From a virus, in IMG/VR virus record IMGVR_UViG_3300020445_000007, positions 1 to 44,194 of that record: DNA of 44,194 nt. The stretch is one strand, 5' to 3'. Positions 3,600 to 40,032 of the stretch are shown here, piece after piece. The stretch's first letter is position 1; each line of letters starts with the position of its first letter. A program made the translations under genes and the position numbers. The notes under the pieces were generated by a model. The model was not told the DNA's origin, did no database searches, and saw only the letters and a list, made by a program, of their open reading frames with translations.

Positions 3600-6500
3600 T
3601 TATGAGCAAGTAGGGTTACAATCACCTAAGTATGAATAAAGAATTGGCCAAGGTGCAGGAACCTGGAAGTCCAGTGTCCTTGGTGTGATACCATCAGTTA
3701 CCTTGACTTGTGCTATTCCATCCATACCTATAATAGGTTGTTCTGGGTGATTACGATCTCTCAATGGTTTGATAAAGTTGCAGAAGTAATCGTTAGATGG
3801 TGTAACGCAAGCACCGTTCTGTGTGTATGCGAAATCATATGTGTGATCCTGACAAGGATCAGCAACTGCTGTAAGGTTAATCAAGTCAGTAAGTGTGAAT
3901 GGTGAACCTATCAACTCTACCCACAATGTGTATACCTTTTGAGTACCACGTGCAGGGAAGATAGCAGGTTGAATATCATTCTTAACAGAGAAGTCAACTG
4001 GCATATTGATAGAGGTGTCACCACGGAAGGGACACTCACGTAAGAGTCCAGTTGCTGCTGCTAATTGACCTGTGTATGTGCTAAAATCACCTGTGTTAAC
4101 AACAGTAGGACCGTTAGCGTGTGTAGCATTATTAAGAGTGAAGATGGTTCTAGTACCACCGTCAGTTGTTTCCATATATGGGAACTCATTAATGATACGC
4201 ATTCTCCAAGTAAATGTACCAGCATCAATTGTGTATGATACAGTTACATCCTGTGTCTGGTTGTTAGTAACAGAGAAATTCTGTGCACCCTTATAGTAAT
4301 CTTGTATCTGTAATGAATTAATGTCAATGTATGGTAGTGCACTCAATGGTGAACCAGCAACGTCAATCACGAATGAACGTGTAAGAATGTTACCGAAGTA
4401 ATCACCACAAGTTAATGCAGTATCTACAAAGCCATCAACGTGACGTAAGTATCCATTAGATAGGGTACCAGTCCATCCATTAGAATACTCGTACCACCAC
4501 ATACCCAACTGAGGTGGGTTAGCAATAACACTAATCTCATTAGATAGTGATGAGTATGATCCGTTGTAAAGATACAACTGGAATGAATATGGTTCGTTTA
4601 CACCAGATGGAATACCATTACAAGGAATATCAGTTGCACGAATAACATTACCAGAGTTGTCTAGAGGTGGTACTAACCCTGATGGGTTTTGGATAGGTAC
4701 TTCAACAGCATATCCACCGTACATACTACGTAATGGGAACTCTTCAGTAGTACTGATGTAGTTACCTACGTATACACCATTTCCTCCTTCAGTTGGAGAA
4801 TAGTCAACAGTAACATCATTACGAGCATCTACCCTAGATCTATAGTAATTAGATGCTAGTGGTACATAATCAGGATATGTTTCATACTGTGTCTTCCAAG
4901 CGAATGACTTAGTACCTGTAGCAGTATCGTAAGTGAATGACTTACTGAACCAAATGTACTCAATGTTCTGGTCAGTACAGACTAACTGTACAGGGAAGCG
5001 ACCATTCTTAGGATCCTTATCAGCAGTTAGATAAGGAGTAGTGTTTGGATAATGTGTTTCTCCACCGTACTCAGTATTTGCAGTGAATAGGTTAGCAGTA
5101 ATTGCGTTAGCACCACTGTACATAGTCAGTGCTGGCTGTGCAGGTAGTGCAGGTAAATTGCTAACTGTTAATTGTACAGTAGATGTAATGATTGCATTGT
5201 AAGTAGTAGTAAAGTCTAAGTGCTGTGATGCAAATGTAGTACCACCAGACTGACCGAACCAGATACTTGCTAGACTATATGACTCAGGTATATAAACCTC
5301 AGCCCAAGCACCAGCAGATCCTGGTGTTCCATACGTACGTACGTTAGTAGTACTTGCAGAAGCAGTAGCACCTAATCTAAATTCAAATGTCTTACCAGTC
5401 CAAGATGAATCACTAAGATTAAATCTATAGAACGCACCCTTAGGTACTTCAAATACAGTAGAACCACCAGCATTAACTTGAACCTGATAGTCAGCACCAA
5501 CTGCTACTAGATCATATGTTACTCTCCAACGCATCTTGCAACGGAAGAACGCATTAGCAAACTTCCACCACTTATTAACAACAAGATGAGAGAATCCCAT
5601 CTCACGTCCTGTTACGTCCTCATACTTCTCAACGTATGCGTAATGTGTATTCTTATTATCTACATTATTCTCGAACCAGTCTCCTTCCTCATATCCTGAG
5701 CTAGTTGCAGCAGCAAGTTCATTTAGATTGTACCACTGACTACCACCACCTTTGTCACCATACAGTTGCCAGAATGGTACGTACTCAAACTTATCATTGT
5801 CAAACTGAGTCTGAGTAAACATAGTACTCAATGACTTGTAGAACAATGGACGTGAGTACCAGTTCTGATTAACCCAAGACACATCGTCGTTAGGCTCTCC
5901 GTGAACTGTATATACTGTATTGTAATCAACTACCTTACTAGTAGCATCGTAGACCATTTCTACGTCTGATGTATTAGTAGTAACATTGGTTAGTTGAATC
6001 GTATACTCCTGAGTTTGCCCAGAAATATTTTCTTCAACTGATAATGTTAGGTTAAGTGTTTCTGTATTGGTTAGAGTACCAGATAATATACCAGTCTCAG
6101 TGTCAAATGTTAGACCAGTAGTAGCAATTGATGCAGAACTACTTAGAGTATAATCTCTATCAACAATAGTTTCAGCAGCAAATGTTCTAAGGAATGATAC
6201 ACCTAACTGTATGTTAACAGCCTGTCCTAAATTAAAGGTACCTAATGAACCAGCAGGAGTATACCAAGTAGTTAATAGGTCAATGTATGGTGTAACAGCA
6301 CCTCTAGTTACTGGCTCATCTGCGTGGTTATGATCTGTTCCTCTATCTACTGGGAGTTGTAGTATCTCTGTACCTTCACCCTCTCCAGCTAATTCTTGTT
6401 GCTCAGTCTGATACCACAATTTGTTATTTGCACTCTCTTGTTGCCAAGTCCAAATACCATCCATTGCCTGATGAGTTCCAGTAACATTAGAAACCTTCAA

Positions 6501-9500
6501 TAGGTTACCACCAACCTCACTAGATTGAGCAGTGAATGATGCCTCTGCTGGAGTGATCTGGAAACTAGTGTTAGCAGAATCTACGTCAGTAATTGGATGC
6601 CAAGTATATTGTAGGGCATTGAATTCAACACCACCTACATCATATACGAATGAATCACCCTCGTATGCTGTGTCACCAGGGAAGATAGGATCTGACTTGA
6701 ATGTATCACCAGCAATATATGGGAATGCAGGGTCACCGTTATCATCTTCAGTAATGAAGTATGCATAGGTACCATTTGGATAGTCAGGAGTCTTACAATA
6801 GCGACCATTTCTCTTATCTAAGTCACCTACGATAAGTCTCTCACCCATATTAGCGTGATTGTAGCAGAAATAGAATAGTGCTTGTGGTGCATCAACAGCA
6901 GGAGTAACTTCCACTGATCTTAGAGTTGCAGCATCAAAGCCAGCAACATAAGCAGCATAATCTACTACTGCATCTTCTAACTTATAAACTACACCAGCAG
7001 TATAAACTGCGTTAATATCTTGTGCGTTCTGTCCACTAACGTGCCAACCCTGTGATACACCATCACCATAAACAGAGAAGAGCATAGCGTGAGTATCATT
7101 AGATGCATCAGATAGGTTAAAGATATACTTTCTACCCTTTCTAAAGTTGAAAGAAGGTTTCTCTACAGTACCATCTAATCCAGTACCACTAATGTAGTAG
7201 CGATTACCACTACCAGAGGTTACAGCAGCTGATACAACCACTGTGTAAGTTGTTTCTAATCCATCGTTATCATTACCAGCATATTCAAAGTCTTCATTGA
7301 ATGACTTATATGGATATGATACAGTAGAAGGACGGTTGAGATATCCATCAGGTGTTCTACCTACCAATTTCTGCATATATCCTGGCTTAAGACGAACAAC
7401 AGAACTAGAACTATTCGTCTCATCCTGATAACCATATGGTCCGTAGATAGGATAACCATCAAATGCTATTCCTAAGATCTTAGAGTGTCCATTAGCGTGT
7501 CTCCTGTAGTCACCTTGAATATTAGTATTAGTTGTAATAGCATCACCCATCTTGGAATGATTATTACATACGTAATGAAGATCAGCAGGTGCATCTAAAG
7601 GAACTATAATAGTTACAGATCTAGTTGTTGCAACGTCAAATGATGAGACATATGTAACAGCATCAACAGAGACACCATTAAGTCTGTATGTTACACCATC
7701 GTTATACTTAACACCACCACTGTGTACACCATCATCTGTACTAGAGAAGTATAATGGGTGAGTGTCATTGGAGGTATCATCTTGATTAAAGATGTATGTA
7801 TTACCCTTAGTGAATTCAAGTGTAGGTTGCTCAGTAGTAACACCAGCAGCACTTCTTAAGAAGTAACCATTAGCACTACCTGAACCAAAGTCATTGTTAC
7901 CAGCAGTCTTAACATCAACAGTTACGACCCAATTAATAGTTTGATATCCTAGATCGAAGTAACTATTGGCAATATATGTGGATCCAGTACGAACAGCTTC
8001 ATCCTCATATGATTCTAATAACTTACTAGAGTTATATCCATATACATTTGCTGCATTAGGATAACCACCGTATGTGTCAGCACCAGTTAAGTTCTCGTTA
8101 GTAACGTCATTGAATGTCCAACCAGGAGTTGGTCCACTCTCGTTACTGTAATGGTACATATACACACCAGTTGTGCTTATACCAAATGGTTTAACACTAC
8201 GTAGTGGTATGGCAACTGGAAGAGTTGTGGAGTGACCGTAATCAGTACCTCCTCTCCAGTTAAAGTCTTGGTCGAATGATTGATCAACAATACTATTTGG
8301 GTTACCAGCAGTAATTGCAATAGATGCTACAGCAGTTGCCTGTACACCACCAGCAACGTTTGGTGCTGCGATAGAAACAGTTGGAGCAGTTGAGTATCCA
8401 GTACCTGGGGTAGTTACATTTAATGCTGAGATATAACCATCAAGAACCGATAGGGTTGCGGATGCTTGAGCACCTGCACCACCTCCACCTCCAGTGAAGC
8501 TAACAGTACAAGTGGTATATCCAACGCCAGGAACATCAATAGTAATTGCATCAAGAACACCAGTTTGTGTACCAATATCACATCCAGCAGCTGCAGGTTC
8601 TTCAAAGACTGGGTTTGCAGATGCACTACCACCGTAAGCTACAGGATCACCATAGAAGTAATCTCCAATAACGTACGGGAATACAGGAGTTGCTGACGAA
8701 TTAAACGTCATAAAGTATGCGTATGTACCACCTGGGAAGTCAGGAGTAATACAGAATCTACCGTTTCTACGGTCTAAATGAATTGATTCTCCAGCAGTAT
8801 TAGTACCCGTCTTCAATTCATAATCCTGTATAAAGGATCCCATTGGGTAAGTATTTGTATTAGGAGCATAACCAACAGGTTCAGTCAGGGTAATAGTACC
8901 CGTCATTGCTTGGTGTGCTTCGCAGACGTAATAGTAAGTGCCAGGATATGTTGTAGATGTGTTCCACAATACAGTAGCATTATGGTTACCATTGTTAGTT
9001 ACTGTTGCAACTACCTGCGCAGGGTTGTAAGGAGCAGGTACTTTCTGAATCCAGAATGGATGGTTAACAGTTGTACCACCACCGCCACCAGGAGCAGATA
9101 CTGTAATAGTTCCAACCATACTACCGTGGTATTCGCACTGGTAGTAGTAAGTACCAGCAGTTGTTGGAGTCCAACTAACAGTACCACTCTGTGTACCTTG
9201 GTTAGTTGCACCACTTACCTGATTTCCAGTACCAGTACCAGCAGCAGTCTTTAGATAGAATGGATGTCCACTAGCAGATACTGTAAAGTTAATAGTATCA
9301 CCTTCATAGAATGTTAATCCTGGATCAGCACCATTTTGGTTACCATTTCTATCAGATCCAGAGATTGTATAGTCATTAGAGTTAGATGCTGTAACAACTA
9401 AGTTATAAGTTTGAGGAGTAGATCCACCACCACCACCTGTGACATAAGATGCGTTAACGTTGAAGATAAGGTTGTCACCAACATTAGCAGCAATACTTAC

Positions 9501-12500
9501 ATCAGTACCAGAGTTTGATGAACCACCTGTTGCAGTGAACAGATAGTCATTACTATCAGATGCAGTAACATCCCAAGTGTAGTTTACAGGAGTGTATGGA
9601 GTACCTGAACGAACAGATCTTACATCATAAGCAGATATCATCCTTGCTAATGTTGTATTCGATGCGGGATCATCATATCCAATTGGACCATAGATGGGAT
9701 AACCATCCATAGCGTATCCAACTATAGGTGAGTGATGAGTTGCATTTATAATATCTGATGTGGTATGTGATGGTAACGCAGCAGAGTTTGTATTTGTAGT
9801 AACAGATGCAGCACCACCATACCCTGAATACAATGAGCAATAGTAATAAAGGTTAGCTGCTTCAGGTTGCACCTGTAAGTATGTACCAGTACCAGCCTGA
9901 CCATCACCAGGAGTACCCTGATACTTAATACCTGTTAAGTACTCACTACCACCTTGGATGTGAATACCATCCTGTGAATCTGCTAATCTAAATGGGTATC
10001 CAGTATTAGTAGAGTCACTCTGATCGAAGTAATATGTATTACCTTCTGATAAAATAAGGTTAGGTGTCTGATTACCATCTAAGTAGTACCTATTACCACC
10101 AGCAGTATTAACTACAGTGACAACATAGTTTGTAGTTGATCCTTTCCAAGTATTGATTAGGAAGTCACCAGTAATGTAGTAGTATGCTCCATCAGTATTA
10201 ACTATACCTGTACCTTCGTCAGCACCGAATGCAGTTCTAGTAGTATACTTATCAAAGGCATATCCAGTAGGACAGTTATATCCAGAAGGTAAGTTAACAC
10301 CACTACCGTGACTCCAGTTACGTATACTAACACCGTTCTTGGTAAGACCAAGCATATCGTAAGCAAATCCTTGAGTTGATGTAGGAGTATCAGCAGTAAC
10401 GTTCCTACCACCACGATATGTTATTGTATGATTATATCCTTTCGGTAATATTGAATAAGAGTTGTTTGCGTTAGGGAAGACACCATATAATGCAGGCTGT
10501 GGTAAGTTATCAGCAACCTGTGTTAGTGCTCTACTAACTGTGTTCAAGTTACCAGTTGTAACAGATCCACCACCAGATACAAAGTCATTGTCTGGATTGT
10601 GTGCAGGATTATTAACTGGTGCAGATGCATTAGCAATACCAACAGTAGGTGCTACAGTATATCCTGAACCTGGACTATTAATAGTGACAGCAGTAACAAC
10701 ACCATCAACCACAACTGCGGTTGCAGATGCACCAAGTCCTCCACCTCCAGTGAAGGTAATTGTTGGTAAATCTAGAGGGTTGTATCCGTGACCACCGTTG
10801 GTAACAGTAACACTTTGTATACCACCACCAGTAAGTGAGATAGTTGCAGTTGCAGTTGCACCAACACCATCTCCAGTAAGGACTACGGTAGGTGCTACTG
10901 TGTATCCAGAACCAGCTTGATCAATGTTAATACCTGTGACAGCACCACCAGTTAGTGTGATAGTTGCTGATGCAGCAGCGTCTACTCCACCACCACCTGA
11001 GAAACTAACAACAGGTGCTACAGTATATCCTGAACCCTGTTGACTTAGAGTAAGGTTAGAAACATATCCAGATGTTCCAGCTTTAGGGAATGTACCGTAA
11101 AGACCTGGAGCAGGATGATTGTCACTAACAAGATTAAATAATCCACCTTCTTTATGGTATGCAGCAGTAGGTGATCCAGCAGATGTTACCCATACATCAG
11201 AAATCACATCCTGAGATATAATACCAATAGGAGTACGAACTTGAACTAAATTACCAATAACAGGGTTGAACCTAGAAAATTCAGATCCCAAGTTAAATGT
11301 TATAACATTACTTGCTTGACCTACCGCAACAGTAAGGTTAACACCATCTAGTGTTATCTCATCTAGACTGTTATTAGGATAGGTCTGAACACTACCACCA
11401 CCAAATTCATAACTAACAGGTGATGCATTACCACCATTATATTGACGACTGTAATCCCAATCAAGTGGTCTACGTAACCAAGCTTTTGCTAACTTAGGAA
11501 GTGATTGACCACCTTCATAAGTATAATTCTGAAGATATGCCATCTTCGTAGCCCACTGGAGTAGAATACCAGCAACAATAGGACCAGAGAATGATGTACC
11601 ATCAGTACAAGCATAGTAAGAAGAACTTACTTGGTTGTATACAGTATTACTATTCCAATAGTATTGTGGGACATATACTGATTCACCAGGAGCACTAGTA
11701 GTAATAGTACCGTAGTTAGAGAACGCAGAGAATGTATTAGCCCAAGATGTAGCACCAACGGTTATCTTACCATCGAGACTCTCTTGTCCAATCTCCATAT
11801 TCCACTTGTTATCCTTCGGACCATTAGAACGAACACCAGGTAAGAATTTACCTTGATATCCTTCATAGGATGAACCACCTATTGTATAGAATCCATTACC
11901 AGCAGAACGTACAAGAATGATGTGGTTAGCTACAAGATAGTTTTCATAGTCATCAAACAATGTGTCACTACCCAATCCAGTATCAAATCCAGGTTCGTTC
12001 TTAGGAACATAAGGATATGAAGGACCAGGTGCTGTTGTTCCTAATGATGCGTTAACAATGGCAGGTCTATAGTTACCTTTCCAATTAGCGTGAGCAGGAT
12101 TATTGTGATTAACAATTGCTAAGATAGCATATGCAAATCTACTTGAAAATGTTGAGTACTCAGATCCTAATTCATTAAAAACTTTTAGAGAATATATTTT
12201 AGACTTCTTGGATACACCAAAGGTTCTACCAGCAGCAAAGATAGCACACTCTGTACCGTGACCTGAATCATCCTCATTACTATTTGCTACACCGTTGAGT
12301 GTGATACCTGAGTTATACCCTGGAACCTCATACACACGATAATTTGCTTGTTCTGTCGCACCATTTAAATCGGATGCGTAATCTGGGTGATACAATTCTG
12401 GGTGTAGGTTAGCACCAGCAGATCCAGTTGGTCTGCTACATCCACGAACACCAGTGTCAATAACATATAAGTCTGAATTCTCTCCGTCTTCGGTCAATGA

Positions 12501-13487
12501 ATATAGACCATATCCTAAACCATCCTGATACTGCGAAATTCTTTGTAAGTACCACTTATTAAACAACGTAAACTTCATCGATCTTGTCGTTGAAGGTAAC
12601 GAAGAACCTGAAAGACCTAAGCCTGGAGTAGTATCTTCATAAAGATATAGTTCTAAAGGTGTAGTTGCAGTAATTGGAATAGCGATGTAAGCACCATTAC
12701 CATTGCCACCACTGTTACCAGAGCCAGGAGTACCAACTCTTACAACACCAGTAGTATATTCTACACCACCATTATGTACACCATCTGGAGTAGTAGAAAA
12801 GCACCACTTATAGTTTAAGTTAGAAGCATCTCTTACCCAAATATAAACTACAGTACCTGGAACTAGGTAATCTATCTGATAAGATTCATAGACCAAACCA
12901 CCAGCATAGTATCCTAATTTAGGACCAAAGCTACCATTATTAACAACACCTTCATAGGTTGGAGTGGAAGTACTTCCAGTGTAGGGAACAACATTACCAT
13001 ATGCAAAGGGATCTACCTGTTGCTCTAAGTTTGGAATACTATCGCCTTCTTGCGCAATTGCAGTAGCAATTTCTGTTCTTGTAGGGGAATTAAATGTTAA
13101 AGTACCGTGCTCAGTCTTAGGGTCTGTTACTGCGTCTGGAGGGGGAGTTACTTCTGCGGAAAATTTTGTTGCGTCTGCGTGATTAATATGCGACTCTGGG
13201 TTCATCCAGTGTGATATAGCTTCTTCAGTTGCTGATACGTCATCTTTTGGGATTCTAATCTCTTTATCCCAACGAGCACCTATTACTTCAGGAAAATCTA
13301 CGTTACTCTTTAAAACTTCAATATAATTCTGATCCTTTCCAGGAAAATCCAAAAACACTTGGTTAAGTGCTCCAAGATCGTGTGCCTCTATCAGCGACGT
13401 AAAACGTTGTTTCGCACGTTCAATGACGGCTCTTGTATCGGTCTCTTTCGATACCGTAACAATAAGTCTGCCTTCCTCTTTTTGCAT
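3600..13487 (-). CDS. Giant virion protein: subtilase + cupredoxin-like + YHYH domains
   Basis: 3295 aa. Residues 1-100 look like an I9-type protease propeptide. Residues about 330-660 are a subtilisin-family (S8) protease: D344 in YVIDTG, H410 in DSGHGTE, oxyanion N531 in RSAGNG and nucleophile S632 in DGTSFSGP, all in canonical order. GxGY-type beta repeats lie at about 806-956 and 1640-1730. Four cupredoxin-like segments have an upstream His and a C-x2-H-x2-M motif: H1408/C1451/H1454/M1457, H1476/C1522/H1525/M1528, H1910/C1974/H1977/M1980, H2133/C2208/H2211/M2214. Two YHYH-like domains carry DGYPIYGP (about 1251-1268 and 1997-2017). Residues around 2450-2500 show an FDTETGILSGT (He_PIG-like) motif; the rest is beta-rich. 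No signal peptide. It sits among fibre genes behind a late-type promoter, so it is probably virion-borne. Copper binding and protease activity are inferred. Confidence 0.85.
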   Translation of the reverse strand: MQKEEGRLIVTVSKETDTRAVIERAKQRFTSLIEAHDLGALNQVFLDFPGKDQNYIEVLKSNVDFPEVIGARWDKEIRIPKDDVSATEEAISHWMNPESHINHADATKFSAEVTPPPDAVTDPKTEHGTLTFNSPTRTEIATAIAQEGDSIPNLEQQVDPFAYGNVVPYTGSTSTPTYEGVVNNGSFGPKLGYYAGGLVYESYQIDYLVPGTVVYIWVRDASNLNYKWCFSTTPDGVHNGGVEYTTGVVRVGTPGSGNSGGNGNGAYIAIPITATTPLELYLYEDTTPGLGLSGSSLPSTTRSMKFTLFNKWYLQRISQYQDGLGYGLYSLTEDGENSDLYVIDTGVRGCSRPTGSAGANLHPELYHPDYASDLNGATEQANYRVYEVPGYNSGITLNGVANSNEDDSGHGTECAIFAAGRTFGVSKKSKIYSLKVFNELGSEYSTFSSRFAYAILAIVNHNNPAHANWKGNYRPAIVNASLGTTAPGPSYPYVPKNEPGFDTGLGSDTLFDDYENYLVANHIILVRSAGNGFYTIGGSSYEGYQGKFLPGVRSNGPKDNKWNMEIGQESLDGKITVGATSWANTFSAFSNYGTITTSAPGESVYVPQYYWNSNTVYNQVSSSYYACTDGTSFSGPIVAGILLQWATKMAYLQNYTYEGGQSLPKLAKAWLRRPLDWDYSRQYNGGNASPVSYEFGGGSVQTYPNNSLDEITLDGVNLTVAVGQASNVITFNLGSEFSRFNPVIGNLVQVRTPIGIISQDVISDVWVTSAGSPTAAYHKEGGLFNLVSDNHPAPGLYGTFPKAGTSGYVSNLTLSQQGSGYTVAPVVSFSGGGGVDAAASATITLTGGAVTGINIDQAGSGYTVAPTVVLTGDGVGATATATISLTGGGIQSVTVTNGGHGYNPLDLPTITFTGGGGLGASATAVVVDGVVTAVTINSPGSGYTVAPTVGIANASAPVNNPAHNPDNDFVSGGGSVTTGNLNTVSRALTQVADNLPQPALYGVFPNANNSYSILPKGYNHTITYRGGRNVTADTPTSTQGFAYDMLGLTKNGVSIRNWSHGSGVNLPSGYNCPTGYAFDKYTTRTAFGADEGTGIVNTDGAYYYITGDFLINTWKGSTTNYVVTVVNTAGGNRYYLDGNQTPNLILSEGNTYYFDQSDSTNTGYPFRLADSQDGIHIQGGSEYLTGIKYQGTPGDGQAGTGTYLQVQPEAANLYYYCSLYSGYGGAASVTTNTNSAALPSHTTSDIINATHHSPIVGYAMDGYPIYGPIGYDDPASNTTLARMISAYDVRSVRSGTPYTPVNYTWDVTASDSNDYLFTATGGSSNSGTDVSIAANVGDNLIFNVNASYVTGGGGGSTPQTYNLVVTASNSNDYTISGSDRNGNQNGADPGLTFYEGDTINFTVSASGHPFYLKTAAGTGTGNQVSGATNQGTQSGTVSWTPTTAGTYYYQCEYHGSMVGTITVSAPGGGGGTTVNHPFWIQKVPAPYNPAQVVATVTNNGNHNATVLWNTSTTYPGTYYYVCEAHQAMTGTITLTEPVGYAPNTNTYPMGSFIQDYELKTGTNTAGESIHLDRRNGRFCITPDFPGGTYAYFMTFNSSATPVFPYVIGDYFYGDPVAYGGSASANPVFEEPAAAGCDIGTQTGVLDAITIDVPGVGYTTCTVSFTGGGGGAGAQASATLSVLDGYISALNVTTPGTGYSTAPTVSIAAPNVAGGVQATAVASIAITAGNPNSIVDQSFDQDFNWRGGTDYGHSTTLPVAIPLRSVKPFGISTTGVYMYHYSNESGPTPGWTFNDVTNENLTGADTYGGYPNAANVYGYNSSKLLESYEDEAVRTGSTYIANSYFDLGYQTINWVVTVDVKTAGNNDFGSGSANGYFLRSAAGVTTEQPTLEFTKGNTYIFNQDDTSNDTHPLYFSSTDDGVHSGGVKYNDGVTYRLNGVSVDAVTYVSSFDVATTRSVTIIVPLDAPADLHYVCNNHSKMGDAITTNTNIQGDYRRHANGHSKILGIAFDGYPIYGPYGYQDETNSSSSVVRLKPGYMQKLVGRTPDGYLNRPSTVSYPYKSFNEDFEYAGNDNDGLETTYTVVVSAAVTSGSGNRYYISGTGLDGTVEKPSFNFRKGRKYIFNLSDASNDTHAMLFSVYGDGVSQGWHVSGQNAQDINAVYTAGVVYKLEDAVVDYAAYVAGFDAATLRSVEVTPAVDAPQALFYFCYNHANMGERLIVGDLDKRNGRYCKTPDYPNGTYAYFITEDDNGDPAFPYIAGDTFKSDPIFPGDTAYEGDSFVYDVGGVEFNALQYTWHPITDVDSANTSFQITPAEASFTAQSSEVGGNLLKVSNVTGTHQAMDGIWTWQQESANNKLWYQTEQQELAGEGEGTEILQLPVDRGTDHNHADEPVTRGAVTPYIDLLTTWYTPAGSLGTFNLGQAVNIQLGVSFLRTFAAETIVDRDYTLSSSASIATTGLTFDTETGILSGTLTNTETLNLTLSVEENISGQTQEYTIQLTNVTTNTSDVEMVYDATSKVVDYNTVYTVHGEPNDDVSWVNQNWYSRPLFYKSLSTMFTQTQFDNDKFEYVPFWQLYGDKGGGSQWYNLNELAAATSSGYEEGDWFENNVDNKNTHYAYVEKYEDVTGREMGFSHLVVNKWWKFANAFFRCKMRWRVTYDLVAVGADYQVQVNAGGSTVFEVPKGAFYRFNLSDSSWTGKTFEFRLGATASASTTNVRTYGTPGSAGAWAEVYIPESYSLASIWFGQSGGTTFASQHLDFTTTYNAIITSTVQLTVSNLPALPAQPALTMYSGANAITANLFTANTEYGGETHYPNTTPYLTADKDPKNGRFPVQLVCTDQNIEYIWFSKSFTYDTATGTKSFAWKTQYETYPDYVPLASNYYRSRVDARNDVTVDYSPTEGGNGVYVGNYISTTEEFPLRSMYGGYAVEVPIQNPSGLVPPLDNSGNVIRATDIPCNGIPSGVNEPYSFQLYLYNGSYSSLSNEISVIANPPQLGMWWYEYSNGWTGTLSNGYLRHVDGFVDTALTCGDYFGNILTRSFVIDVAGSPLSALPYIDINSLQIQDYYKGAQNFSVTNNQTQDVTVSYTIDAGTFTWRMRIINEFPYMETTDGGTRTIFTLNNATHANGPTVVNTGDFSTYTGQLAAATGLLRECPFRGDTSINMPVDFSVKNDIQPAIFPARGTQKVYTLWVELIGSPFTLTDLINLTAVADPCQDHTYDFAYTQNGACVTPSNDYFCNFIKPLRDRNHPEQPIIGMDGIAQVKVTDGITPRTLDFQVPAPWPILYSYLGDCNPTCS
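6840..9900 (-). repeat. Cupredoxin-like and YHYH domain duplications in the giant protein
   Basis: Reading with the gene: a degenerate cupredoxin-like copy (LYYYCSLYSGYGG, ligand His replaced by Tyr), YHYH copy 1, two intact copper motifs, an intact third motif followed by YHYH copy 2, and a fourth intact motif. The order cupredoxin then YHYH occurs twice, so the pair seems duplicated as a block. Confidence 0.7.
10615..11085 (-). repeat. GxGY-type tandem repeats in the giant protein
   Basis: Four units of about 35-40 residues share GSGYTVAPxV, a GGGG or GDG turn, and A-x-A-T-I/V strands, followed by a V-T-x-(I/V) strand. A further pair is at about 8290-8575. Related units occur in the gp5-like and gp53 proteins. 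Confidence 0.8.
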
Positions 13488-34895: not shown

Positions 34896-37580
34896 TTAAT
34901 TAACGCTATGGGGGAACACAATTCCACCATCATCTATAGATGACTCTGTATTTATTATAATACCCGAAGCCCACGGTGGTATATCATAACTATTTCCAGC
35001 ACTATTTCCACCACTCATTCCACTACCACCAGTCAATCCTGCTCCAGCATTAGTTGATTGTAACATAGTACTGATAGCCGCTGCTTGATCCGAACCATTC
35101 GATGTATTCGGTGTTATCTTCGCACCATTATTAGTTGTCTGGGAAGCACTTACATTAGTGTTTGTAGATGATGATGACGTAGACATATTTGCTGTTGCTG
35201 ATGCAACCTTTTCAAAAGGTGTCTGCAATGAATATCCAAATTCTCTTGGGTCTTTAAGACTAGGACCACCACGTCCAACGTCTGCTTCTACAGTACCAAT
35301 CTCCCAATGTAAGTGTGGTGCACTAGAAGTACCTGTATTACCCATCTTACCAGCAAATGTACCACCAGGGAACATCTTACCTTGTTCAAGTGGTGATTTG
35401 TTCTGCATATGACCATACAAATGGGTCAATCCATCATTCTGAGTGGTAAAGGTAATGTAATTACCATACCCATTAGGATCCAGTCCATTACTTGTTATCT
35501 TAGCCTTATTAGGAAGGAACATAGGTTGTCCTCCCTTATCACCAGCAAATCCTATGTCAATACCTTGATGGTTAGGTCTACTTGCTGTCTTACGTCCGTG
35601 TGTGAGTACTGCTGTCTCGTTTGTTGGTTTAGCAATATCGCCACCACCAATACCCGTAGCAGTACCTCCACCAAGGATTAATCCTGGAGAACCACCACCT
35701 TGTCCTTCTGCACGATCTTTTCTACCCTGTTCTGTTGGAAGAGCAGTGTTAGTATTGTCAACGAAACTATTAATATTACCCAGAACATCACCACTCATAG
35801 CCTCACCGAAACCAGCTAGCATACCCTTCAGAGCTTTTGATCCAGGTACCCAATCAGGTATCCTATTAATAATCCCACCTAGCAAACTCCCTATACCTTT
35901 AACAAGCCAGACTAGACCCTCAACTACTTTACCTATAATCTGTACGGCCCATTGGATGGTTTTCAATGCCATCTGTAGTATTGGTACTAGAGTTTTGATT
36001 AATATCTTAGCAATGATACCAATAATTCTACCAATATTCTTTATAGCAGTGATGAATCCTCCACCACTATCATCACCACCAATACCAAATGACTTAGCCA
36101 CACCATTCAATGCATCACCAATACCTGTGGTCATTTCTTTCCAAACATTCAGCACAGGTCTGAAGGTCTCACCCCAATCAAATCCTTTAAAGACTGAACC
36201 AATACCCTCACCTAAAAACTTACCTAAGTTCTCACCTAACCAAGCACCAAGAGCAGCACCAATAGGACCAGCAATTGCGAAACCTAAAGCAGTACCAGCA
36301 CCAGCACCTAGACCAGCACCTACAGATCTACTAACAATCTTATTCTTATCCTTACTTAACGTACCATTTTTTAAGTTTGCATTGATGTCCTCGTCAGTCA
36401 TCATTGGATTCTCTTTACGCAAACGTTCCATCTCTTCATCGTTTGCTTCCATCGCACCGAAACCAGCACTAAGTAATGATCCAAGGATAGGAATCCTCTT
36501 CATTCCTTGACTAGTTGCCTTCAGTCCTCCTCCTATTACTTTCCTACTAGTATTAAGTCCTCCACTAATACCCTTAAACCCTTGGTATATACCTTTAGGT
36601 GCAGCTTGAAGACCTTTACCTAGGTTTTGTATACCACCCGACAACATTCCCTTAGAAAGGTTCTTCAACTGAAGACCTATACCTTTCAAACCATCAGTAA
36701 TATTCTTTAACCTTATATTTTTAAGACCCTTAAAGAAATTTCCAATAGATTTAAGAGCATCATCTAAACCACCTCCTTTCCTAAGGAATTTGTTAAGACC
36801 AGGTGCTGTATAATTCTGTGCATCAAAACCTGACTTAAACTGATTGAACATACCACCCTTAGGACCAAGGGTATTACGAAGTCCAAGTCTTGCCCCAAGT
36901 GGTAACCTAGGACCAGTAAAAGGAGTAGCTAAACTGGTACCAAGATTCTCTATGCTCTTACCAGTAGCCTTAATACCTTTTAATACAGGTACACTAGCTG
37001 CTCTCCTGAGTCTACGAATGCCACTTGTCTGATCACCAAGATCGAACCCTCTCCTAAGAATATTCTTACCTAATGCACCAGCCTTCTGACCTTTATTCCA
37101 TTGCGTAAAACCCATCGCAACTGGACGGGTATCAAAATCACTAAACCCATCAATTGATGGAGTAAATTTATCCCATACTTCATTAACTTTCGCAAGTGTT
37201 CCTCTTGCTTTCTCGTCTAATTTCTGTGTAAATCTTCTTAAGAGTTCAGGACCAAAGAGAGCTGCCAGCAAAGCAGCATCCATAACACCTAAACCTCCTG
37301 TCCCTATACCCTTACCACCAGCACTTCTTATTAAACCTGGACCACCACCAGACTGTCTTTCTATTCCAGTTTCTTGACGAGCAAAGGCTTGCGACCGTAA
37401 ATTCTTCTGCTCAAAAACAAAATACTGTTTGTTTAACTTTAACTGCTCTGTCTGTATATTAACAAGGTCAGACAACAGACTATTCGTAATCATATGCTGC
37501 TTCAAAGAAGCTGCAGAAATTGAATCATTATCGTTGCCAATAATGTTCGGTGCTTTCTGTTCTCTAGATTCGGGTGCCAT
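34896..37580 (-). CDS. Tape-measure-like protein with C-terminal M23 peptidase
   Basis: 894 aa. The N-terminal two thirds are Lys/Gly-rich amphipathic helices; about 425-580 is strongly hydrophobic (GFAIAGPIGAALGAWLGENL, IIGIIAKILIKTLVPILQMA), as in tape-measure proteins. About 665-775 is a LytM/M23 metallopeptidase: H671-x3-D675 (NHQGIDIG), H720/H724 (HLYGHM) and H756-x-H758 (HLHWE), the full zinc-ligand set. The tail is Ser/Asn-rich. It directly follows the gp26-like gene and the 58-aa ORF, the standard chaperone/tape-measure order, and its start is in a TAATG overlap. Likely sets tail length and cuts peptidoglycan during entry. T4 gp29 (590 aa) lacks this peptidase. Confidence 0.75.
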   Translation of the reverse strand: MAPESREQKAPNIIGNDNDSISAASLKQHMITNSLLSDLVNIQTEQLKLNKQYFVFEQKNLRSQAFARQETGIERQSGGGPGLIRSAGGKGIGTGGLGVMDAALLAALFGPELLRRFTQKLDEKARGTLAKVNEVWDKFTPSIDGFSDFDTRPVAMGFTQWNKGQKAGALGKNILRRGFDLGDQTSGIRRLRRAASVPVLKGIKATGKSIENLGTSLATPFTGPRLPLGARLGLRNTLGPKGGMFNQFKSGFDAQNYTAPGLNKFLRKGGGLDDALKSIGNFFKGLKNIRLKNITDGLKGIGLQLKNLSKGMLSGGIQNLGKGLQAAPKGIYQGFKGISGGLNTSRKVIGGGLKATSQGMKRIPILGSLLSAGFGAMEANDEEMERLRKENPMMTDEDINANLKNGTLSKDKNKIVSRSVGAGLGAGAGTALGFAIAGPIGAALGAWLGENLGKFLGEGIGSVFKGFDWGETFRPVLNVWKEMTTGIGDALNGVAKSFGIGGDDSGGGFITAIKNIGRIIGIIAKILIKTLVPILQMALKTIQWAVQIIGKVVEGLVWLVKGIGSLLGGIINRIPDWVPGSKALKGMLAGFGEAMSGDVLGNINSFVDNTNTALPTEQGRKDRAEGQGGGSPGLILGGGTATGIGGGDIAKPTNETAVLTHGRKTASRPNHQGIDIGFAGDKGGQPMFLPNKAKITSNGLDPNGYGNYITFTTQNDGLTHLYGHMQNKSPLEQGKMFPGGTFAGKMGNTGTSSAPHLHWEIGTVEADVGRGGPSLKDPREFGYSLQTPFEKVASATANMSTSSSSTNTNVSASQTTNNGAKITPNTSNGSDQAAAISTMLQSTNAGAGLTGGSGMSGGNSAGNSYDIPPWASGIIINTESSIDDGGIVFPHSVN
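34949..34956 (-). promoter_or_regulatory. Late-promoter-like box AATAAATA
   Basis: AATAAATA (7 of 8) lies within the last codons of the tape-measure gene, 56 nt before the gp27-like ATG. Being coding, it may be chance. Confidence 0.35.
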
Positions 37581-37756
37581 TATGGTGTCTGCTGTTGTTG
37601 CCTTAGTTTTTCTTCCTCAAGATGTTGTATCAATAATGTCACATATATTTCTCGCTCCCACGGTAGCATACTCTCAAGTTCTGTTAGAGAATACTTATGA
37701 TGTTGCATAAGAGCGAAGTTAGTCCTGAAATAGTTTTCAAGACTGTTATATGACAT
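37580..37756 (-). CDS. Tail-assembly chaperone T-like ORF, 58 aa
   Basis: ATG at 37754-37756 and TAA at 37580-37582 give 58 residues: MSYNSLENYF, a helix SLTELESMLPWEREIYVTLL, and a Gln-rich end. The L-P-W-E-R-(E/D)-I-Y core is the kind seen in the second (T-type) partner of tail-assembly chaperone pairs. It overlaps the gp26-like stop (TAATG) and the tape-measure start (TAATG). It lies exactly in the -1 frame relative to gp26, and a slip heptamer 9 nt upstream of the ATG would fuse the two proteins. It may therefore be made both alone and as a gp26 extension. Confidence 0.72.
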   Translation of the reverse strand: MSYNSLENYFRTNFALMQHHKYSLTELESMLPWEREIYVTLLIQHLEEEKLRQQQQTP

Positions 37757-38469
37757 TACGAGCCGAAAAAAGCGGCTAGTCCCTCAATGGTGTACTCTTC
37801 ATTACTACCTGTGTTAGGGTTCTTCACATTAAATGTATGTGATAACTTAGGCATATTAATAAAGAACTGTTGCAAGTTTTCAAATTGCTTAGAGGTTAAA
37901 CTATCTAGGAAGGTATTAAGTTCTTTCTTAGATGCATTACAAGCTTCGTGTACCTCATCACCCTCAATAATCTGGTCGATACACTCTATGATGACATCAA
38001 ATGCCTCTTCAGGCTTAGCATTCTGTGAAAAATTACTCTTGACAAAGGTATCTAATTGAGGATACTTCATCTTGACAGTAATACCATCAGTAATCTGTAC
38101 CATATCAGTGACACCCGCAGGTTTCACAACCTTGACATCATCTAGATTGATGGATACATCTACTACGGTTTCATTATCATCTCTACAAGTGATCTTGAGT
38201 TCTAATTCCTCACTCACAGACTTACCACGGATCTGAAGGAATAAAAATTCCAAGTCAAACATAGGTAAGTTTCTAACCTTCACTCTACTTTGAATACAAT
38301 TAGTAAGAAGAGTACATACAGCATCAGTGATCTGTTTGTCATCATCTGTCTCCATAGCCATCAATAGTACCTTCTCTTCTTTAACAAGGAAGGGACGGAA
38401 CTTAATTGTCTGACCAGTAGAAGGAAGTTCAGTCGTAAAGGTGGGCACCTCAATTTTTGGTAAAGGCAT
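37756..38469 (-). CDS. gp26: Baseplate hub/tail assembly protein gp26-like
   Basis: 237 aa, close to T4 gp26 (208). The N-terminal signature ELPSTGQTIKFRPFLVKEEK, then FDLEFLFLQIRGKSVSEELE and the C-x-D strand, is the T4 baseplate (gp26) family pattern. The C-terminus is helical (LDSLTSKQFENLQQFFINMP). In T4, gp26 acts in hub assembly. Here its position before a 58-aa T-like ORF and the tape-measure gene makes it the likely G-type tail chaperone. Codons near the stop read GCT TTT TTC, a -1 slip heptamer. A TCTAAATA late-type box lies 22 nt upstream. Confidence 0.85.
   Translation of the reverse strand: MPLPKIEVPTFTTELPSTGQTIKFRPFLVKEEKVLLMAMETDDDKQITDAVCTLLTNCIQSRVKVRNLPMFDLEFLFLQIRGKSVSEELELKITCRDDNETVVDVSINLDDVKVVKPAGVTDMVQITDGITVKMKYPQLDTFVKSNFSQNAKPEEAFDVIIECIDQIIEGDEVHEACNASKKELNTFLDSLTSKQFENLQQFFINMPKLSHTFNVKNPNTGSNEEYTIEGLAAFFGS
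37765..37771 (-). other. Candidate -1 frameshift slip site T_TTT_TTC
   Basis: In the gp26 frame the codons are GCT TTT TTC, so the heptamer T TTT TTC fits X_XXY_YYZ. GAGGGA, a Shine-Dalgarno-like element, lies 8 nt upstream (37780-37785), as at dnaX. A slip reads CGG CTC GTA and then the ATG of the 58-aa ORF, giving a fusion of about 296 aa. A 5-bp stem AGCCG/CGGCT surrounds the site. Confidence 0.6.
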
Positions 38470-38490: not shown

Positions 38491-38498
38491 TATTTAGA
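38491..38498 (-). promoter_or_regulatory. Late-promoter-like box TCTAAATA before gp26
   Basis: TCTAAATA (7 of 8) contains the TAA stop of the 239-aa gene and lies 22 nt before the gp26-like ATG, in an otherwise empty 24-nt gap. Confidence 0.55.
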
Positions 38499-39213
38499 CT
38501 GGATGTCGGACGTGATTTCTAGCACAATAGATAACATACCTACCAGTAGTGGGTTCCATACCCAAAACCAGTTCTTTCTGTCTATCTTTAGTGAATTTTC
38601 CATCATATATTTTGTCGAGAACACCCTGTGTATCCTTATCAAATTTTAAATCACCACCAATTCTATCTCTAAATGGCTTGGAGTATAATTTTATTGGATT
38701 CTTAGACGGATAGCACGGTATCTTGATGCCTAGCAACCCATCAACCTCTATCCCCTGCTCTATTGTCTTCCATTCTGTACCATTTATAGCATTCATAGTG
38801 TCTAACGTATCCTCACCTCCTATAAAGTACGTCCACATTACTGCTTTCACTACCTGTATTGCTGTCTTTCTCTCTGCTGCTTGGAAATTAATATAGTAAT
38901 CATCATCCTCCACAACATCTATAAAGACTTTAGACTTAGGATCTAAATTAATACCTAGATGTTCTGCTACCTTCTTTAAATTGCTACCGTAATCTGGTTC
39001 ATCATCTCTCCAGTTCTTTGTACGGTCACCAAAATATTGATAGGACTCCTCTCCTTTATAATATTTGTATAGACAATTCTTTTGTTTGTTTATGAAATAT
39101 AATTTGGCCACACGTACAGCAGGTTCATACTGCACGACAAATAACTCCGACCCTTCTGTAAGAGAAGATCTATCTGTATTAGATAGAGATAAAACATACT
39201 CTAGATTAAACAT
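38494..39213 (-). CDS. Unknown protein of the hub cluster, 239 aa
   Basis: 239 aa, mixed alpha/beta and soluble. Visible features are an acidic patch (DVVEDDDYYINFQ), a helix with conserved-looking aromatics (AIQVVKAVMWTYFIGGED) and a basic C-terminus (YVIYCARNHVRHPV). I do not recognise the family. Its length is near that of T4 gp51 (249 aa, hub assembly), and it sits between gp26-like and tail-tube-like genes, but no sequence evidence links it to gp51. It has a good ribosome binding site (TTTAGG, 5 nt spacing), which is part of a repeated intergenic element. Its TAA stop lies within the late-type box of gp26. Confidence 0.7.
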   Translation of the reverse strand: MFNLEYVLSLSNTDRSSLTEGSELFVVQYEPAVRVAKLYFINKQKNCLYKYYKGEESYQYFGDRTKNWRDDEPDYGSNLKKVAEHLGINLDPKSKVFIDVVEDDDYYINFQAAERKTAIQVVKAVMWTYFIGGEDTLDTMNAINGTEWKTIEQGIEVDGLLGIKIPCYPSKNPIKLYSKPFRDRIGGDLKFDKDTQGVLDKIYDGKFTKDRQKELVLGMEPTTGRYVIYCARNHVRHPV

Positions 39214-39261: not shown

Positions 39262-40032
39262 TTAGAACAGGTTATCGAATTCTGAGGAGAAATCGTTGAA
39301 TGCATCCTTGACTTTATCAATAGCACCTTGGAATGTAGCAGGGTTCTTGTTAGAGCTAGTAATATTATTAGTCTTACTCTCTATGTTTGATCTTGCATCT
39401 TCATACTGTACTTCAAACCTTTCATAGTGGAAGTTAACAGTAGCAGTCATCAGAGTTGTTGTTCCTGCATCCAATGGTATCGCATCGATAGAATAAGGAT
39501 AAGCACTAGTAAAGAAGTAACGAATACTTCTACCTTGCTCACTGTATCGTGGACCTGCTTCAAACTTGTCTACAATTACTGTTCTTTGATAATCATCAGG
39601 GTATGACATCCGAGTGAAACGATTTCTATTACGCTGAGGGTAATGAGACATCTCGTTAGGGATCCTCTCCTTCTGATTAAACATACTCTTCTCTTGAAAG
39701 ATTCTATCGAACCAAGAGTTCATTACTTTGAACCCAGTCATATTTGCATCGCAAATAAAACTGAGACTTAAATCACTATACATTTTCATTGTGGGATACT
39801 TATAAGATGATCCTGTATAGTATCCATTCACTTGCTGAGTAGCTGCTTGTACGCTAGGCAGTGATGCTGCATTACACAAAACTTCCAGTGTACTTCTATC
39901 GAAATTCACTGGAAAATCTGAATTAAAGATTCCCCCCTGTAAATCAGGGAAAACAACACGAAACTGGTTGGACTTAGCAATCCCACCACCACGATTTAGT
40001 TTCTCCTGAACCTTAGAGTATAGGTTTGCCAT
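39262..40032 (-). CDS. Tail-tube-fold protein, probable gp54-like tube initiator
   Basis: 256 aa. The sequence has the gp19/gp54 tube-protein plan: FRVVFPDLQGG, LEVLCNAASLPSVQA, YKYPTMKMYSDLSLSF, then CDANMTGFKVMNSWFDRIF and a C-terminal strand MTATVNFHYERFEV. It is longer than gp19 (163 aa) and nearer gp54 (320 aa). T4 has gp54 next to gp48; here gp48 is close by on the other strand. It lies first in its unit, behind a CATAAATA box. Tube initiator at the baseplate-tail junction is the best guess; a second tube protein is the alternative. Confidence 0.68.
   Translation of the reverse strand: MANLYSKVQEKLNRGGGIAKSNQFRVVFPDLQGGIFNSDFPVNFDRSTLEVLCNAASLPSVQAATQQVNGYYTGSSYKYPTMKMYSDLSLSFICDANMTGFKVMNSWFDRIFQEKSMFNQKERIPNEMSHYPQRNRNRFTRMSYPDDYQRTVIVDKFEAGPRYSEQGRSIRYFFTSAYPYSIDAIPLDAGTTTLMTATVNFHYERFEVQYEDARSNIESKTNNITSSNKNPATFQGAIDKVKDAFNDFSSEFDNLF

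Follow-up and report, generated by a model that had tools for sequence, protein, structure and literature searches.

One of the closest described counterparts of the locus analysed here is gpG/gpGT of lambda, which, along with a wider range of frameshifted TAC genes, was reportedly described by Xu, Hendrix and Duda in 2004, a paper cited in PMC12859696, and in which the slippery heptamer is G_GGA_AAG. Lambda and our locus have in common a short gene lying between those for the tail tube and the tape measure, a -1 slip, predicted in our case, near its 3' end and a -1 frame that extends the protein at its C-terminus; the heptamer, by contrast, is T_TTT_TTC here, and the comparison with lambda was one of fold rather than of gpG sequence. 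A second counterpart is the gp26/gp51 pair of T4, in which gp26 belongs to the same family (PF12322) and gp51 carries the same C-terminal piece, but where two genes on opposite strands, with no slip site in gp26, stand in for what is very probably one frameshifted gene here. Finally, the Vandenendeviridae and Andersonviridae loci described with phage Adele (PMC12846349) have a poly-T slip motif (conserved GTTTTT) ending a short chaperone and a -1 extension that is routinely entered as a separate hypothetical gene; these are other phage families, likened to our locus by slip motif and annotation.

Within T4-like phages, the chaperone genes were reportedly identified by Vladimirov, Gautam and Davidson (Virology 566:9-15, 2022). 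In the passages that cite this work, the PRFect paper (PMC10885494) refers to T4-like phages in which a short chaperone gene and a second, fused one take the place of frameshifting, and the phage Adele paper (PMC12846349) to poly-T signals for slippage in T4-like TAC-N genes. Earlier, Sullivan et al. (2010; PMC3037559) described cyanophage gp51 as having about 20% of its usual length and gp51 as absent in Aeh1, with no mention of frameshifting. The frameshifted chaperone mechanism considered below is thus a well-conserved case of one already described for tailed phages, T4-like phages included.

The window, i.e., the whole stretch of 44,194 bases that constitutes the virus record under study, encodes a gp26-like protein whose relatives belong to T4-like phages, for the most part cyanophages. 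Judging from sequence comparison, a deliberate one-base slip very probably yields a short and a long chaperone in this marine T4-like phage. We assign a probability of about 0.92 to the reading in which gp26 and the 58-aa ORF that follows it are one recoded gene giving both forms, based on sequence signals, conservation of the site and of its phase, homology and predicted fold. The gp26-like gene, the slip site, the 58-aa ORF and the tape-measure-like gene all lie on the minus strand, which the initial annotation had left unstated, as do the other features listed here:

39262..40032, minus strand: tail tube protein (PF23849 Phage_TTP_2, E 1e-39).
38494-39213, minus strand: 239-aa protein that belongs to no known family, encoded after the tail tube gene and before the chaperone gene, present only in the window's own clade (L001-L016) among the loci fetched.
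37756..38469, minus strand: gp26-like gene, 237 aa, putative short form of the tail assembly chaperone (TAC-N; counterpart of gpG in lambda), from PF12322, phrog_150 and predicted fold.
37780..37785, minus strand: GAGGGA, 8 nt upstream of the heptamer, candidate stimulator resembling a Shine-Dalgarno sequence, from its position and a GAG bias.
37765..37771, minus strand: slippery heptamer T_TTT_TTC, from phase conservation in relatives and synonymous constraint.
37720..37745, minus strand: predicted stem-loop AGTCTTGAAA-ACTA-TTTCAGGACT, about 20 nt past the heptamer, from folding energy.
37580..37764, minus strand: -1 frame extension, RLV plus 58 aa, which would form the C-terminus of the long chaperone (TAC-NC; counterpart of the T portion in lambda gpGT) and is mostly entered as gp51, from phrog_634 and a match of the extension profile to T4 gp51.
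34896..37580, minus strand: 894-aa tape-measure-like protein containing, close to its C-terminus, an M23 peptidase domain, from PF01551 and weak tape-measure PHROG matches.

The gene order is therefore tube, 239-aa gene, chaperone and tape measure, and the gp26-like gene stands between the tube and tape-measure genes. With the tube upstream, the tape measure downstream, an in-frame heptamer and an open -1 frame, the layout of the G/GT type that the initial annotation had proposed is borne out. The M23 domain of the tape-measure-like protein spans residues 670-762 (E 5e-12). The minus strand of the window also carries a very long ORF of 3295 aa (3600-13487).

Membership of the 237-aa protein in the T4 gp26 family is indicated by its matches to PF12322 T4_baseplate (E 5e-68; 229 bits against a Pfam gathering cut-off of 24.5) and phrog_150 (E 3e-75), PF12322 being matched by 24/24 aligned members. 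The 58-aa ORF matches phrog_634 ('baseplate hub assembly catalyst', gp51; E 2e-28), which matches T4 gp51 as well and points to a shared C-terminal domain. It also matches the C-terminal columns 240-279 of phrog_150, a hint that some members of the family are continuous.

The 3' end of the gp26-like gene reads GAG GGA CTA GCC GCT TTT TTC GGC TCG TAA TG, in which T_TTT_TTC is in frame two codons ahead of the stop, and the 58-aa ORF (37580-37756) occupies the -1 frame, its start being the ATG of the TAATG overlap. The initial annotation had called the heptamer, GAGGGA 8 nt upstream of it, the ORF in the -1 frame through the overlap and the tape-measure-like gene next in line; each was found again at the positions given above. 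Joining the frames likewise reproduced the junction that it had predicted, Ala-Phe-Phe-Arg-Leu-Val-Met, the slipped product being a 296-aa fusion of residues 1-235 with 61 aa (RLV plus the 58 aa). In the 23 putative window genes of at least 100 aa, in-frame X_XXY_YYZ heptamers (Y = A/T) occur 27 times per 14,045 codon positions, and the T_TTT_TTC of gp26 is the only one of them located 10 codons or fewer from a stop. Nevertheless, the decisive argument for the slip site is its conservation in relatives, not its rarity.

This conservation was followed in two sets of genes. In the closer set, drawn from viral contigs plus two cyanophages and made up of 72 distinct gp26 genes, window included, TTTTTTC was found in the same phase in 72/72, one or two codons before the stop. 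The residue preceding the heptamer varies (Ala, Ser, Asn, Gly), with a third codon base that is always T. The -1 frame is open for more than 50 aa in 70 of these 72 genes; the remaining two are L056, where the contig end cuts it, and locus L083 of phage S-SCSM1, a true exception. The more distant set, for which Sinorhizobium phage phiM19 and Aeromonas phage CC2 served as search seeds, comprises 68 distinct genes, all of which have an in-phase site (57 TTTTTTC and 11 TTTTTTT) and a -1 extension of more than 40 aa past the stop. Further named phages, with hosts among Synechococcus, Prochlorococcus, Pelagibacter, Methylophilales, Sinorhizobium, Rhizobium, Pseudomonas, Vibrio, Aeromonas, Stenotrophomonas, Delftia, Cronobacter and Xanthomonas, display the same slip site and -1 extension in 17/18 cases, CC2 and a phiM19 relative recurring in the 68-gene set; both elements are present in Aeh1, and in four named phages the site is a longer T-run, T_TTT_TTT.

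The two kinds of case that the initial annotation had set against its own proposal, i.e., relatives without the site or with the ORF in another frame, are confined among named phages to K474 and S-SCSM1. Vibrio phage K474 (L097, around 3223) has CTTTTTG instead (ACG CTT TTT GCG TAA TG), still followed by a -1 ORF, and is the sole frameshift-type relative examined that has no T_TTT_TTN. S-SCSM1 (L083, 4001-4904) retains the heptamer, but a junction 11 nt longer shifts gp51, which has an ATG of its own, to the +1 frame; this reflects either a real switch of mechanism or a sequence error.

The latter phage, in which the gp51 frame is unreachable by a -1 slip, is one of the observations in line with the view that the 58-aa ORF represents a gp51-like gene in its own right, reached through termination and reinitiation at TAATG, the T-run being incidental or imposed by a conserved Phe-Phe. 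In the window and its nearest clade, the ATG overlaps the gp26 stop, so that independent initiation is possible there, and gp51 is entered as a separate gene in public records. Moreover, the tape-measure start overlaps the extension stop in the same manner (TAATG, 37578-37582, minus strand); TAATG by itself is hence no indicator of frameshifting. However, 50 of the 70 extensions (22 of 33 representatives) have no ATG, GTG or TTG in their first 8 codons, i.e., before the conserved core, which leaves frameshifting as the only obvious route to their translation. Extensions of this kind, unannotated and without start codons, are found in CC2 (L096, 3206-3366), LPCS28 (L098, 3179-3342) and Aeh1 (L184, 2275-2441). 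A conserved Phe-Phe alone, in turn, would not fix TTT TTC and the preceding T in phase, including in phages that prefer TTC: TTT is kept at the site despite its rare use for Phe in RHph_I9 (10%), IG49 (11%) and Mendera (13%). We therefore regard reinitiation as the sole source of the C-terminal part as very improbable.

Selection at the nucleotide level is also apparent around the proposed frameshift site. In a set of 35 representatives, residues 231-237 stand out for their synonymous constraint, at 1.58-1.72 where the mean is 1.17 (sd 0.16), and only the gene start is higher. The Glu codon of the Shine-Dalgarno-like motif is GAG in 27 of the 28 representatives bearing Glu, compared with a background of 30% elsewhere in these genes (491 GAG : 1140 GAA). 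The 50 nt directly after the heptamer have a mean folding z of -3.46, with 79% of 34 representatives below -2 and a value of -4.0 in the window, whereas averages at other offsets between -420 and +150 range from -1.36 to +0.64, save for the overlapping interval at offset 0. The stem position varies between clades. RNAalifold found no consensus structure over 20 representatives and, in the window's clade, 8 pairs without compensatory change; the stem given by hand is paired in 79% of cells versus 44-50% when slid, with covariation no higher than in shuffles. It is thus folding energy that speaks for the stem-loop, which is likely and, as a conserved structure, putative.

These translation-type stimulators, the Shine-Dalgarno-like motif and the downstream RNA structure, also bear on a transcriptional origin of the shifted frame, in which RNA polymerase would slip on the T-run and leave a fraction of the mRNAs frame-shifted. 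Nearly every relative has a run of 6-8 T, which speaks for such slippage. Yet the run is short and always in phase for tandem tRNA slippage, a fixed phase for which polymerase slippage would have no need, and it comes with stimulators of the ribosomal type, making this origin of the long form very improbable.

The T4-type arrangement provides a contrast to the two-part gene. T4 genes 26 and 51 lie on opposite strands, and T4 gp51 consists of a whole gp26 domain (PF12322, E 4e-52) followed by the C-terminal piece; the profile of the frameshift extensions matches its residues 211-243 with an i-Evalue of 8e-7 in a two-sequence search. T4 gene 26 ends in GAG TTC TTT GAG TTA CTA TAA and is free of a slip site. 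As in T4, both domains are found in a separate full-length gp51 in Klebsiella phage Potts1 as well as in Proteus phage SJ_PmiM, and gp26 is without slip site in these two phages. A slip-site gp26 together with a separate full-length gp51 was not found in the phages examined. Depending on the phage, frameshifting or a second gene would accordingly supply the long form.

The predicted fold of gp26 (AlphaFold model from 24 sequences, mean pLDDT 90) moderately backs the chaperone reading. With VIA-align, the top match of residues 1-85 of the model is the HK97 tail assembly chaperone 2ob9, at a Z of 7.0, which is below 8, with 4.6 A over 84 residues, followed by 3klu YqbN (6.8), 3fgx (5.9) and 5ir0 (4.5), the remainder being at or below 3.8. 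YqbN is a member of the XkdN chaperone family. Foldseek ranked 2ob9 fourth, with a weak E of 0.64, and a profile of diverse gp26 sequences gave no meaningful match against PDB sequences.

On comparative evidence, both the -1 frameshift and the tail-chaperone readings are strongly supported because of the phase-conserved site, the loss of start codons, the RNA and Shine-Dalgarno-like stimulators, the T4 split arrangement and a predicted fold that suggestively matches the HK97 chaperone. That gp26 is a tail chaperone, as the initial annotation had suggested, is well supported by these comparisons and the predicted fold; it is not new, a precedent being ascribed to Vladimirov et al. (2022) in the papers that cite it. 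That slippage takes place in vivo, how efficient it is and that the products act as chaperones are inferred here, and we envision the following mechanism. The majority of ribosomes would read to the gp26 stop and release the 237-aa short chaperone (TAC-N). A minority would pause at T_TTT_TTC, aided by the downstream stem-loop and by GAGGGA, a motif able to pair with 16S rRNA; the two tRNA-Phe would then re-pair one base further back, on TTT TTT, and reading on as ...AAFF-RLV-MSYN... would produce the long chaperone of 296 aa (TAC-NC). If lambda gpG/gpGT is a guide, the short and the long form would coat or hold the tape-measure protein during assembly of the tail tube. In the window's clade, a third product could be added to the short chaperone and the frameshift fusion, namely a free C-terminal domain made by reinitiation, although we consider such a trio unlikely.

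The comparison indicates that, in cyanophages as well as in many other T4-like phages, 'baseplate hub gp26' and 'gp51' are very probably one frameshifted chaperone gene, which current annotation wrongly splits into two genes or whose second part it misses; no joined gp26/gp51 annotation was found in the public records of the relatives examined. A frameshift extension would account for the cyanophage gp51 of about 20% length, and the slip site and unannotated -1 extension of Aeh1 for the absence of gp51 reported in that phage (Sullivan et al., 2010; PMC3037559). In S-SM2, the predicted junction-spanning peptide is GFFRIALIHMDLENYYR.
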